NCBI RefSeq assembly: GCF_037081715.1
Contig: NZ_JAZDDH010000001.1
Location: 1,302,001 to 1,366,000 of the forward strand
Direction: 5' to 3'
Origin: Halalkalicoccus sp. CG83
GTDB taxonomy: Archaea; Halobacteriota; Halobacteria; Halobacteriales; Halalkalicoccaceae
DNA: 64,000 bases
Shown here: in pieces, positions 26,796 to 50,916 of the stretch
Layout: each line of letters starts with the position of its first letter
Numbering within the stretch: the first letter of the stretch is position 1
The notes under the pieces: model-generated
The model's input: the letters and a program-made list of their open reading frames with translations, nothing else
The model's database searches: none
Told to the model about the DNA's origin: nothing
Position numbers and translations under genes: made by a program

Positions 26796-28132
26796 GTTCA
26801 CGAAACGAAGACCGCGGTAGCCCGTTCGCGCCGCACACGACCGACGAGACGGCCGCGATGCTTGAGGCGATCGGTGCCGAGACCGTCGAGGCGCTGTTCG
26901 ATATTCCCGATCCGGTGCGATTCGACGGCGAGTTCGACATCGATCCCCGAGGCGAACGCGAGATTCGAACGGAGCTTCGCCACCTGCTCGGCCGGAACGA
27001 CGACCTGGTCGAGTTCCTCGGGCGCGGTCACTACGATCACTACGTGCCGTCGCTGGTCGACCACCTCGCCGATCGCTCCGAGTTCCTCACCAGCTACACG
27101 CAGTACCAGCCCGAGATCACCCAGGGCTTCCTCCAGGTGCTCTTCGAGTACCAGTCGATGCTCGTCGAGCTCACGGGGTTGGAGATCGCGAACTGCTCGA
27201 TGTACGACGCCGCGACCGCGCTCGGCGAGGCAGCGACGCTCGCCGCCCGGGTGCGCGAGACCGACGGCCACCGCGTGCTCGTCCCCGACCTGCTGCGCGA
27301 GGAACGGCGTTCCGTCCTCGAGAACTACGTCGCGGGCGCCGGCCTCACCGTCGAGAGCTACCCCTCCGACGACGCGAACGCCGACCTCGACGCGCTCGAC
27401 GAGACGATCGACGAGGACTGCGTGATGGTCTACGCCGAGAGCCCCACGGTTCGAGGGACGATCGAGGAGCGACTCGGCGAGATCGGCGAGTCCGCGGACG
27501 AGAACGACGCGCTGTTCGTCCTCGGCTCCGATCCGGTGGCGTTGTCGGTGCTCGAGGCTCCCGGGGAGATCGGTGCCGACGTCGTGATCGGCGATGCGGC
27601 CACGCTGGGGCTGGGAGCGAGCTACGGGATGGGGCTCGGCCTCTTCGCCACCCGCGAGGAGTTCGTCCGTCAGGTCCCCGGCCGGCTGGTCGGCGCGAGC
27701 ACCGACGCTCACGGGAAACGCGCCTACACGCTGACGCTCCAGACGCGCGAACAGCACATCCGTCGCGAACGCGCGACCTCGAACATCTGTACGAACCAGG
27801 CGTGGGTCGCGCTGCGGACGGCGATCCACGCCGCCACGCTCGGCCCGTCCGGACTCGTGGACCTCGCGCGCGACTGCCTCGAGTGGCCCGCCGACCTCGC
27901 CGACCGTCTCGACGCGATCGACGGCGTGCGGGCGCCGGTCCACGACCGTCACCACTTCCGGGAGTTCGTCGCCCGTACCGACCAGCCCGCACCCGCCGTC
28001 GTCGGGGACCTCGAGTCGAAGGGCTTTGCGGTCCACGCGGTCGACGACCATCTCGTCCAGCTCTGCGTGACCGAGACCAACGCCGATCGGGTCGATGCGC
28101 TCGTCACCGCGTTCAGGGAGGCAGCGCGATGA
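26792..28132 (+). CDS. gcvPA: Glycine dehydrogenase (decarboxylating) subunit 1
   Basis: N-terminal half of the split P protein, 446 residues, in the fold-type I PLP enzyme family. With subunit 2 it decarboxylates glycine and passes the aminomethyl group to GcvH. Family segments are [27 protein letters not shown]-type residues around 100-125, [13 protein letters not shown] and [13 protein letters not shown]-like [13 protein letters not shown]. It lacks the PLP lysine, which is in subunit 2. It overlaps gcvPB by ATGA. Confidence 0.97.
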
Positions 28133-38836: not shown

Positions 38837-38911
38837 GGGTTGGTGATCTAGTCCGGTTATGATACCTCCTTCACACGGAGGAAGCCGGCGGTTCAAATCC
38901 GCCCCAACCCA
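38837..38911 (+). tRNA. tRNA-Val (CAC)
   Basis: Cloverleaf of 75 nt. The acceptor stem is GGGTTGG with CCAACCC and discriminator A. The anticodon stem is CCTCC/GGAGG with loop TTCACAC, giving anticodon CAC. The T arm is GGCGG-TTCAAAT-CCGCC. CCA is not fully encoded. An upstream gtttaag (about 38803) is a plausible TATA. Its 3' end is partly duplicated 190 nt downstream. Confidence 0.96.
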
Positions 38912-38967
38912 CCTTTTGCTGCGCTCCTTCGCTTCGCTCAGTCGCTAGCAAAAGCTGGACCAAAAAC

Positions 38968-38996
38968 GAACGGCTCTCCCGTCGGTCGAGCCGTTC
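38968..38996. repeat. Inverted repeat after tRNA-Val
   Basis: Perfect 9-bp arms gaacggctc (38968-38976) and gagccgttc (38988-38996), loop 11 nt. A second, shorter pair (cttttgct at 38913-38920, agcaaaag at about 38947-38954) directly follows the tRNA and could terminate it. Confidence 0.55.
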
Positions 38997-46947: not shown

Positions 46948-48089
46948 TGTTGGACCTCCTGTGCGTTCTCGACCGCACGCTGGACCGCTTCCTCGAGGGT
47001 CTCCTCGACCTGTACCAGATCGGCGTTCAGGATCTCCATCCCCTCCTCGGCGTTCGTCCCCGCGAGGCGGACGACGACCGGCTTCGGGATCTCGTCGAGC
47101 TCCGAGAGCGCGTCGTTGATCCCCTTCGCGACCTCGTCCCCCCGAGTGATGCCGCCGAAGATGTTGAACACGACGCTCTCGACGTTCTCGTCGGAGAACA
47201 CCATGTCGAGCGCGTTCGTGATGCGTTCGGCCTTTGCGCCGCCGCCGACGTCGAGGAAGTTCGCGGGCTCGCCGCCGTAGTGATCGACCAGATCGAGCGT
47301 CGTCATCACCAGGCCGGCGCCGTTGCCGATGATGCCGACGTTGCCCTCGAGGCGGACGTAGTCGAAGCCGTACTCGCCGGCCTTTCGCTCGAGGTCGTCG
47401 GTGTAGGACTCCTCCTCCATCTCCGCGAGATCGGGCTGGCGGAACAGCGCGTCCTCGTCGATGTTCATCACCGCGTCGGCGGCGATGACCTCGCCGTCGT
47501 CCGTGACCATCAGCGGGTTGATCTCGGCGTCTGAGGCGTCCTTCTCGTCCCAGAGGTCGTACAGCGTGGTCAGCACGCTCGAGACGTCGCTCGCGATCTC
47601 GCGGTCGATCCCGGCGTCGTAGATCGCGCGACGCGCCTGGTAGGGATGCAGGCCGAAGGCGGGGTCGACGTGCTCGCGGGCGATCGCGTCGGGGTCCTCC
47701 TCGGCGACCTCCTCGATGTTCACGCCGCCCTTGCGCGAGACCATCGCCACCGGCCGGCCGGCGCCGCGATCCATCGTCACGCCGACGTAGAGCTCGTCGG
47801 TGAAGTCGACGGCCTCCTCGACGAGCACGCGCTCGACGGTGTAGCCCTTGAGGTCCATCCCCAGAATCGAGTCGGCCGCCTCGCGGGCTTCCTCCTCGTC
47901 GTCGGCCAGCAGGATGCCGCCGGCCTTGCCGCGCCCGCCCACCTGGACCTGCGCCTTGACGGCGACCGGATAGCCGATCGACTCCGCCGCCGACACCACT
48001 TCGTCCGCGCTCTCGGCGAGCTCCGACGCCGGAGTCGGCATTCCGGCGTCGGCGAACACCGACTTCGCCTGGTACTCGTGAAGCTTCAT
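46944..48089 (-). CDS. sucC: Succinate-CoA ligase beta subunit
   Basis: Beta subunit of 381 residues with an ATP-grasp domain. It opens [18 protein letters not shown]; further blocks are [22 protein letters not shown]-like [31 protein letters not shown] and [18 protein letters not shown]. Start at ATG 48089; a TATA-like tactaac (about 48122-48128) lies upstream, leaving a leader of about 10 nt. First gene of sucC-sucD. Confidence 0.97.
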
Positions 48090-48180
48090 GGTTGGCTCGA
48101 ACGGAACTCCTGCCGGCGCGGAGTTAGTAGTACCGGAACCGGCCGGGTGGGACCCGATGGAGTGGATGACGGTTCGTGTC

Positions 48181-48221
48181 TCGCGGCCGGCGCGTCGTGT
48201 GCGTTGTGCCGCCGGCCGCGA
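48181..48221. repeat. Inverted repeat upstream of sucC, 12-bp stem
   Basis: Perfect arms tcgcggccggcg (48181-48192) and cgccggccgcga (48210-48221) with a 17-nt loop. It is all G and C apart from the ends. It lies between the candidate ncRNA and the sucC promoter and may insulate the two units. Confidence 0.6.
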
Positions 48222-48253
48222 AACCGGCCCGCTACAAAGGAACGTCCGCCTCG

Positions 48254-48323
48254 AAGAAAACGACGTCCGAGCGCGACCGGGTGCCTCTGACAGCACGACC
48301 GCGTGACCGGCGCTCGGACGTCG
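48254..48323 (-). terminator. Strong hairpin followed by a T-run
   Basis: Perfect 13-bp arms cgacgtccgagcg (48261-48273) and cgctcggacgtcg (48311-48323). On the minus strand the stem is followed at once by TTTTCTT (48260-48254). This fits an intrinsic-type terminator for a transcript started near 48403. Confidence 0.55.
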
Positions 48324-48404
48324 AGGACGGTCGGGCTACACCCCACCGCCGGGCAAAGCGACCATGAGCGAGCTCATCCACCTCCCCTTGCTTTCTTTGC
48401 CCAC
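48254..48404 (-). ncRNA. Candidate small structured RNA between lrp and sucC
   Basis: A discrete unit: TATA-like ttataagg at 48426-48433, predicted start near 48403, then a hairpin with outer arms gggcaaag/ctttgccc (48395-48402 and 48351-48358) and an inner stem atgag-ctcg-ctcat, and the T-tailed terminator hairpin ending at 48254. A leaderless GTG ORF of 22 codons (48336-48404) lies inside the hairpin, so a microprotein is the alternative. No known RNA family was recognised. Confidence 0.35.
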
Positions 48405-48425
48405 CTTCGAGTACAGGAATGTCAT

Positions 48426-48433
48426 CCTTATAA
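48426..48433 (-). promoter_or_regulatory. TATA box of the candidate ncRNA/microprotein
   Basis: Minus-strand ttataagg preceded by the purine-rich gaaaag, a good BRE-TATA combination, 27 nt upstream of a GTG at 48404. It reads away from the lrp end and toward sucC. Confidence 0.5.
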
Positions 48434-48556
48434 CTTTTCCATCCGTCGTCCGGAACGTTGTGTATTCAACAGCTGATTGCCGATATGAGTCCCGTATCCA
48501 CAGATGAGAACGCCGATATTAGCAACATTTCCTCTATAAATTGTGCATTCCACAGA

Positions 48557-49042
48557 TCATTCCTCGTCCAGGGACTGGCCGAGGTGGAAGTTGAACGGCT
48601 GGACGCGCTCCCCCTTCAGCAGCTCCGAGCTCCTGATCTCGAGCTCCATGTCCTGGAGCGCGTCGGTGATCCGGACGAGGTCGGTCGTGTCCGTCCCGAC
48701 GGCCTCGACGTGGAGGTTCTCGACGCTGGTGATCATCTCCTTGACGGTGATGACGCCCTTCACGTTCATCACCTTCTGTGCCATCTCCGCGCGCTCCCGG
48801 GCCCTGACCGTACAGATGAACAGCACGCGAAGCGGGAGGTTCGCCCGCTCGTAGTCGAGGATCGGTCGATACCCCTGAATGACGCCGCCCTCTTCGAGCT
48901 TCGAGATGCGGTTGCGAACCGTGCTGGCCGAGACGCCGACCCGTTCTGCCATCTCCTCGGCGGTCGCATTGCGGGCGTCCACCTGGAGGAGGTGGAGCAC
49001 GCCGCGATCGACGTCGTCGAGTGCGACGCTGTCGTCTCCCAT
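48557..49042 (-). CDS. Lrp/AsnC family transcriptional regulator
   Basis: Regulator of 161 residues. The N-terminal winged HTH (LDDVDRGVLHLLQVDARNATAEEMAERVGVSASTVRNRISKLEEGGVI) is followed by a RAM/AsnC ligand domain. Such proteins respond to amino acids and often control nitrogen metabolism. A TATA-like ctctaact lies about 27 nt before the ATG at 49042, giving a leaderless message. Nearest downstream genes on the same strand are the candidate ncRNA and sucCD, after 467 nt. Confidence 0.92.
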   Translation of the reverse strand: MGDDSVALDDVDRGVLHLLQVDARNATAEEMAERVGVSASTVRNRISKLEEGGVIQGYRPILDYERANLPLRVLFICTVRARERAEMAQKVMNVKGVITVKEMITSVENLHVEAVGTDTTDLVRITDALQDMELEIRSSELLKGERVQPFNFHLGQSLDEE

Positions 49043-49284: not shown

Positions 49285-50916
49285 GTGGTGACGATGACAG
49301 AGGACCCCGGGGGAGACGTCGACGTGTTGCTCATCGGTATCGACGCGTGCTGTCTGCCGATACTCGAGCCCCTCTTCGAGGAGGACCGGGTGCCGACCCT
49401 CCAGTCGATCTGGGAGGGGAACCCCAGCGACGAACTCGAGTCCCAGGTCCCGCCGTGGACCGCGAGCGCGTGGCCCTCGCTCTATACGGGGACGAACCCC
49501 GGCAAGCACGGCGTCTTCGACTTCCTGCAGTACGACGGCTACGACTGGGGGGTCGCGAACGCGAGCGCCGTCGGCGAACACTCGATGTGGGAGCTGCTCG
49601 ACCACCACGGGCTCGAGAGCGTCGTGGTCAACGTCCCGATGACCTACCCGCCCGACGAGGTCAACGGTGCCGTCGTCCCCGGGTTCACGGCGCCCGAGAA
49701 CCCGCCCTGTCACCCCGAGGGGATCCTCGAGGAGATCCGCGAGGCGATCGGCGAGTACACCGTCTACCCGACGCCGGGCGGCGACGAGGAGGCCTTCGAG
49801 GAGTACGTCGACTCGGTGGGGATGCGAAGCGACGCCTTCCTCTACCTCGCCGAGCGCTTCGAGCCCGACTTCGGCTTCGTCCAGTTCCAGGTCACCGACA
49901 CCGTCTTCCACCAGTACGGCTACGAGGAGGAACTGGTTGCCGAGATCTACGAGGCCGTCGACCGGGAGGTCGATCGGATCCTGGAGGCGACGGATCCGGA
50001 CGTCGCCCTGTTGGTCAGCGATCACGGCCTCGGGAAGTACGAGGGCGAGGAGTTCCGACTCAACACCTTCCTCCGCGAGCACGGCTACGTCGAGACCACG
50101 CGCGGCGGCGCCGGGATGCCCTCCTGGCAGACGATCCGCGAGCAGTCGCTCAGGAAGGGCGAGGAGACGACCGAGCGCGAGGTGACGACGCTCGAACGCG
50201 TGGTCGCCACGGCGGCGCAGTTCGGCATCACGACCCGGCGGATCGGACGAGTCCTCGAGAGCGTCGGCCTCGACGAACTCGCGAAGGAGCACGCCCCCGC
50301 GGGGATCGTAAAGGCCTCCGACGAGCAGGTCGACTTCGCCGAATCGGCGGCGTACATGCGTTCTCGCGTCGAGACGGGCGTCCGGATCAACCTCGAGGGT
50401 CGCGACCCGGAGGGGAAGGTTCCACGGAGCGAGTACGAGTCGGTCCGTGACGAGCTGATCGAGCTACTCGAGGGCGTCGAGGCGCCGAGCGGCGAGCCCG
50501 TCTTCGAGGACGTCGCGCGCGTCGAGGAGTACTTCGAGGGGCCGAAGGTCGATCGCGCGGTCGACGTAATGACGATCCCCAACGACTGGAACTACTTCCT
50601 CTCCGCGCAGGTTCGCGACGAGCTGTTCGCCCCGCCCGCCGAGCCGTGGAACCACAAGCTCTACGGGATCGTCACGGCCACCGGCCCCGGGGTCGACGCC
50701 GATGCCGACCTCGCGGGCGCGCACCTGCTGGACGTCGCGCCGACGGTCCTCTCGGCGCTCGGCGTGCCGCGAAGCGATCGGATGGACGGCGAGCCCCTCG
50801 ATATCGTCCCGCCGACCGAGGAGATGTCCTATCCCGAACACGAGGTCGGCGAGGGTGCGGCGGCCGCCGGCGAGGACGTCGAGGATCGACTCGCCGATCT
50901 GGGTTATCTCGAGTAG
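49285..50916 (+). CDS. Alkaline phosphatase superfamily (type I phosphodiesterase/nucleotide pyrophosphatase-like) protein
   Basis: Protein of about 540 residues with the AP-superfamily metal fold. LLIGIDACCLPILEPL supplies the first Asp; TASAWPSLYTGTNPGKHGVFDF supplies the nucleophile Ser/Thr region; later ligands are in QFQVTDTVFHQYGY (Asp, His) and LLVSDHGLGKYEG (Asp, His). It likely hydrolyses a phosphodiester or a sugar phosphate. No signal peptide, so cytoplasmic. The GTG at 49285 is favoured by the TATA-like cttataataa (about 49250-49258); ATG 49294 is the alternative. The carbamoyltransferase follows 211 nt later. Confidence 0.85.
   Translation: MVTMTEDPGGDVDVLLIGIDACCLPILEPLFEEDRVPTLQSIWEGNPSDELESQVPPWTASAWPSLYTGTNPGKHGVFDFLQYDGYDWGVANASAVGEHSMWELLDHHGLESVVVNVPMTYPPDEVNGAVVPGFTAPENPPCHPEGILEEIREAIGEYTVYPTPGGDEEAFEEYVDSVGMRSDAFLYLAERFEPDFGFVQFQVTDTVFHQYGYEEELVAEIYEAVDREVDRILEATDPDVALLVSDHGLGKYEGEEFRLNTFLREHGYVETTRGGAGMPSWQTIREQSLRKGEETTEREVTTLERVVATAAQFGITTRRIGRVLESVGLDELAKEHAPAGIVKASDEQVDFAESAAYMRSRVETGVRINLEGRDPEGKVPRSEYESVRDELIELLEGVEAPSGEPVFEDVARVEEYFEGPKVDRAVDVMTIPNDWNYFLSAQVRDELFAPPAEPWNHKLYGIVTATGPGVDADADLAGAHLLDVAPTVLSALGVPRSDRMDGEPLDIVPPTEEMSYPEHEVGEGAAAAGEDVEDRLADLGYLE

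Follow-up and report, generated by a model that had tools for sequence, protein, structure and literature searches.

A predicted Lrp operator array and a candidate short structured RNA between lrp and sucC in a haloarchaeal genome

Introduction

Archaeal Lrp proteins bind clusters of semi-palindromic sites that lie in helical phase, and Ptr2, LysM and Ss-LrpB activate transcription from sites immediately ahead of the promoter, where they assist TBP (PMC2995911). Ss-LrpB of Sulfolobus solfataricus recognises a 15-bp consensus, TTGCAAAATTTGCAA, and has neighbouring genes as its targets (PMC4046817). Short RNAs have been described in haloarchaea as well. sRNA132 of Haloferax volcanii is an intergenic RNA with its own BRE/TATA promoter, a stem structure and a narrow phylogenetic range (PMC6560208). 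The CreT RNA toxins are small RNAs with a mini reading frame and a stem-loop, and are defined by consecutive rare AGA or ATA codons after the start (PMC8501985). In Haloferax volcanii a hairpin can also terminate transcription, beside T stretches (PMC7237163).

The locus described here belongs to a haloarchaeal genome of 3.64 Mb. The window referred to throughout is the whole stretch of DNA that was analysed, 64 kb long. On its minus strand, lrp (49042-48557), an ORF for a 161-residue regulator of the Lrp/AsnC family (Pfam HTH_AsnC-type, 1.3e-12), is followed by a 467-bp intergenic stretch, and then by sucC (48089-46944) and sucD. An initial annotation had proposed a new small RNA or microprotein gene between lrp and sucC, and the features that it described are present almost exactly as stated. 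It did not include the operator array upstream, a second hairpin (48350-48326) or a 15-bp hairpin at 48178-48224.

The locus resembles the Ss-LrpB operators in having 15-bp palindromes in the same frame (YTGYGRAWTYCRCAR here), in the regular spacing of several sites, and in the regulation of neighbouring genes, which is predicted here. It differs from them in that the sites, themselves predicted, lie behind the regulator gene at spacings of 52 and 31 bp, with no protein gene following them. The unit that follows shares with sRNA132 all of the features listed above; however, sRNA132 was shown experimentally and is conserved in its genus, whereas the present unit is predicted from sequence and is not conserved. 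It has a mini reading frame and stem-loops in common with CreT, but lacks consecutive rare AGA or ATA codons, and a cas operon was not seen alongside. A CreTA identity was rejected on these codons.

The operator array behind lrp

A palindrome recurs in the DNA past the stop codons of lrp homologues, and from it a site matrix was trained on 72 homologous lrp loci that did not include the window. The consensus used as a starting point had been noticed in a visual reading of sequences that did include the window, and it was refined afterwards on the remaining loci; the stronger test comes from the spacing and the TATA distance in the window, which was outside the training set.

Three such sites are predicted on the minus strand between the lrp stop and the TATA box, at 0, +52 and +83. 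Site A, CTGTGGAATGCACAA (48541-48555), scores 16.8 bits; site B, CTGTGGATACGGGAC (48489-48503), is weak at 8.1 bits, and lies 52 bp from A and 31 bp from C; site C, CTGTTGAATACACAA (48458-48472), scores 15.2 bits and lies 83 bp from A. The spacings of 31, 52 and 83 bp match those of the homologous loci, which peak at 30-31, 51-53 and 81-84 bp, near whole helical turns. The array as a whole scores 36.1, against 18.8 for the runner-up in 464 kb of the genome, both strands included. Scores of at least 20 were reached in 26 of 72 homologous downstream regions and in 1 of 30 upstream regions. Upstream values for loci L116 and above from the site search were set aside as an indexing artefact.

The BRE-TATA promoter of the initial annotation can be read directly, as an A-rich BRE-like element GGAAAAG (48440-48434) followed by a TATA box TTATAA (48433-48428). 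Measured from the start of the third site, the TATA box is offset by 40 bp in most loci, by 27 in two, and by 38 here, and in most homologous loci its position relative to site C varies by no more than 2 bp. Ahead of its TATA box the locus thus has three semi-palindromic sites of 15 bp that are helically phased, an array shared with loci of homologous Lrp genes, and its own basal promoter stands at the conserved operator distance. That this promoter is a dedicated one, as first suggested, is now strongly supported by the array.

Elsewhere in the genome, no array-like pair was found among the loosely matching single sites, and the promoter at 48430 therefore appears to be the principal array target of this Lrp in the genome. 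Whatever the nature of the RNA, the conserved array predicts a binding site and an adjoining target for an Lrp subfamily that is widespread in haloarchaea. The direct repeats at 48458-48555 were also considered as local duplications, an explanation that was dropped because the same motif is found behind other lrp genes. It is worth adding that in one locus (L029) array-like sites with spacings of 51 and 30 sit upstream of lrp rather than downstream.

Start site and folding of the unit

The start had been placed at 48403. A distance of 27-30 nt past the TATA box does correspond to 48404-48403, but the GTG codon occupies 48404-48402, so that the earlier position is off by one. The GTG frame of 22 codons is present (48336-48404, minus strand), ends in TAG at 48338-48336, and has its first base at the predicted transcription start.

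Three hairpins follow on the minus strand. Hairpin 1 (48351-48402; fold z -3.3) stands at the predicted 5' end, and has the 8-bp outer stem that was annotated, GGGCAAAG/CTTTGCCC, in which 48395-48402 pairs with 48351-48358. The annotated 5-bp inner stem, ATGAG-CTCG-CTCAT, is possible, but RNAfold favours a different inner pairing. Stems of 8 bp are common in this GC-rich DNA, with 210 in the 64-kb window, and the first stem alone is therefore weak evidence. Hairpin 2 (48326-48350) abuts hairpin 1, and the two together have a fold z of -4.8. Hairpin 3 (48254-48323) is terminator-like. Its TTTTCTT end lies at 48260-48254 as described, but its stem has 14 bp and not 13, formed by 48310-48323 with 48261-48274. 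It is the longest perfect hairpin in the 64-kb window and, among 260 hairpins of at least 10 bp in 464 kb of the genome, the only one with a T-rich tail.

The unit of 150 nt folds at -80.8 kcal/mol (z = -4.4 relative to dinucleotide-shuffled sequences). Among 7,875 windows of the genome it holds rank 18 once composition is corrected for. Its structure is unusual in the genome, though not unique. To judge from the sequence, the unit could plausibly give a short transcript that ends at the T-tailed hairpin.

Two further hairpins may be mentioned. The only other T-tailed hairpin in the window with a stem of at least 8 bp is at 38967-38996 on the minus strand, near a tRNA gene (38837-38911). The 15-bp hairpin at 48178-48224, which contains one mismatch, lies between the unit and sucC and has a fold z of -5.1.

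Outputs of the array in other loci

The closest comparison is with other haloarchaeal loci, which have the same Lrp subfamily (49-60% identity), the same array spacings and the same distance from site to TATA box. They differ in what stands behind the promoter: a protein gene there, and a structured stretch with a terminator here. In these loci the array promoter usually drives a DUF7344 gene, or a TrmB-like regulator gene after a small leaderless frame, and in some it is followed by a leader and then the DUF7344 gene. The distance from the TATA box to a leaderless start is +29 or +30 there, and the GTG described above likewise lies at +29. The small leaderless frame ahead of the TrmB-like gene is found in seven array loci and has 24-42 codons.

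Neither a DUF7344 remnant (by profile) nor a TrmB remnant was found in the window. A weak local alignment (E 0.19) had pointed to a DUF7344 remnant, and was set aside as unsupported by the profile.

A credible downstream protein gene is missing from two of 29 array loci, namely this one and L118/L181 (genome G051). At the predicted 5' end the longest perfect stem measures 8 bp in this locus and 9 bp in L118/L181, and in none of the other 27 does it exceed 5 bp; at random positions a stem reaches 8 bp in 2.2% of cases and 9 bp in 0.7%. It is suggestive that a long 5'-terminal stem coincides with a missing protein gene in both, in a comparison of two loci that was made after the fact. No match between the predicted RNA of the unit and that of L118/L181 was found by covariance model.

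Some details of the other loci deserve to be recorded. L181 carries, at about 2780-2960 on the minus strand, a second Lrp array, whose promoter (near 2889) points at a convergent gene and has no protein gene of its own; the RNA predicted there begins with the 9-bp stem ATGGGAGAG/CTCTCCCAT. In L007, L010, L015, L016, L019 and L025, a leaderless frame of 38-42 codons directly behind the array overlaps the TrmB-like start, and most of these frames end GTHE or similar. Possibly they are translationally coupled leader frames. In L018, L031 and L154, a conserved GAGAGGACRTRMCCGCTGAAGG-like leader lies between the Lrp-array promoter and the DUF7344 gene.

Conservation and origin

A DNA search of 394 genomes of the order gave no convincing homologue of the unit. 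The matches obtained were short GC-rich pieces scattered across it, which were judged to be chance, and a DNA search of the family likewise returned chance-like fragments alone. No Rfam family matched at gathering or permissive thresholds, and no protein family was found in the longer overlapping frames of the unit. With a covariance model built from the single sequence, the best foreign match had an E of 0.03 per genome, consistent with chance; the same model gave a 23-bit match within the window at 27431-27588. The conserved sequence or structure in relatives that would mark a haloarchaeal intergenic small RNA was thus not found in these searches.

In other genomes of the genus, no more than about 60 bp adjoining sucC is shared at the syntenic place. 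In three of them (G003, G005 and G006) the gene corresponding to 49285-50916 directly adjoins sucC and lrp is absent there. The best Lrp matches inside the genus are at most 50% identical. As both lrp and the unit are missing at the syntenic place, and as these matches are so distant, the two are species-specific among the genomes examined.

Other origins were also considered. Plasmid and phage records and exact-pattern scans of viral contigs gave short chance matches only, and a plasmid, phage or viral origin was rejected. The unit is single copy in the genome, and is not taken to be a repeat or mobile copy.

Proposed function and alternative explanations

We consider it an even chance that the unit is an Lrp-controlled transcription unit making a short structured RNA of about 150 nt. 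Lrp (48557-49042) would bind sites A, B and C, the helically phased palindromes immediately behind lrp, and control the TATA box (48433-48428), more likely as an activator than as a repressor if Ptr2 and Ss-LrpB are a guide. RNA polymerase would start near 48404, pass through the three adjacent hairpins, and stop at the 14-bp hairpin with its U-rich tail. The product would most likely be a non-coding regulatory RNA, for which we propose no target, and its regulatory role is likewise a conjecture. The 5'-terminal stem could protect the end of the RNA and hide the leaderless GTG. The operator array, the fixed TATA distance and the missing partner gene are backed by comparison of sequences. The RNA reading is limited in that, with no homologue of the RNA, neither covariation nor selection can be demonstrated, and the position of the GTG, exactly where relatives have leaderless start codons, counts against it.

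That position is an argument for a leaderless microprotein or leader peptide, in which the 22-codon frame (MGKESKGRWMSSLMVALPGGGV) is the product. The idea gains from the seven loci noted above in which a small leaderless frame stands behind the array, and from the use of GTG as the start in 6% of leaderless Haloferax transcripts (PMC4983044). However, the codon log-odds of the frame are -0.16, as compared with 0.48 +/- 0.18 for coding segments and a non-coding range of -0.03 +/- 0.25, and are below every coding segment tested; the test is coarse, with a codon reference of a handful of genes from the window, and in very short leader peptides codon bias may not hold. Furthermore the start adjoins an 8-bp stem of a kind absent from the protein-coding array loci, the frame has no homologue, and there is no gene behind it to which a leader could be coupled. 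We regard a peptide product as unlikely, and the frame as probably no protein gene. Of the two products originally suggested, small RNA or microprotein, the RNA is thus favoured on the grounds of non-coding codon usage and a start codon beside the 8-bp stem.

The main rival to a small RNA is an orphaned promoter, which we think possible but rather doubtful: an lrp-array locus would have lost its partner gene (DUF7344 or TrmB-like) when the segment settled beside sucC. The promoter might still fire and the terminator might shield sucCD from read-through, the RNA itself having no function. This would account for the absence here of the protein gene that the array drives in most homologous loci, and for a unit that is species-specific and conserved nowhere. 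On the other hand, the usual partners have left no detectable remnant, and three abutting hairpins together with the sole long T-tailed hairpin in 464 kb are not what would be expected of a decaying tail. The hairpins might also do no more than end the lrp message, as its 3' untranslated region and terminator. By inspection there is no other T run of at least 4 on this strand between the lrp stop and 48260, and in Haloferax volcanii intergenic termination is usually signalled by T stretches (PMC7237163). As a full explanation this seems highly improbable, in that a promoter with conserved operator geometry inside the stretch is left unaccounted for. It can nevertheless coexist with a small RNA, because both transcripts would share the terminator.

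More broadly, and tentatively, the conserved array behind lrp may connect the Lrp subfamily to an exchangeable output, which in most genomes is a second regulator protein and which in at least two lineages would be replaced by a non-coding RNA beginning with a perfect stem at the transcription start. If this is true, a dedicated transcription factor, its operator and a single small-RNA output lie within one kilobase, making a clean system for the study of archaeal sRNA control, and a regulatory output can change between protein and RNA while the switch stays.

The boundary with sucC

The initial annotation had drawn attention to the neighbours of the unit, an Lrp regulator and a citric-acid-cycle operon. 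Both do adjoin it, but a functional link to sucCD is unsupported. sucC has a conserved element of its own just upstream, CGGTACTACTAACTC...ATG, common to most of the genus, and since lrp and the unit are absent from this place in other genomes of the genus, the link looks incidental. The terminator would separate the unit from the sucC element.

Upstream of sucC (window 48086-48145, loci L034-L062), two alternative elements occur in haloarchaea, and both are found within this genus. One, TTTCGRYACTACTAACTC, is present in this genome and in most of the genus; the alternative, GGGATTTAAGC, lies close to a leaderless start.
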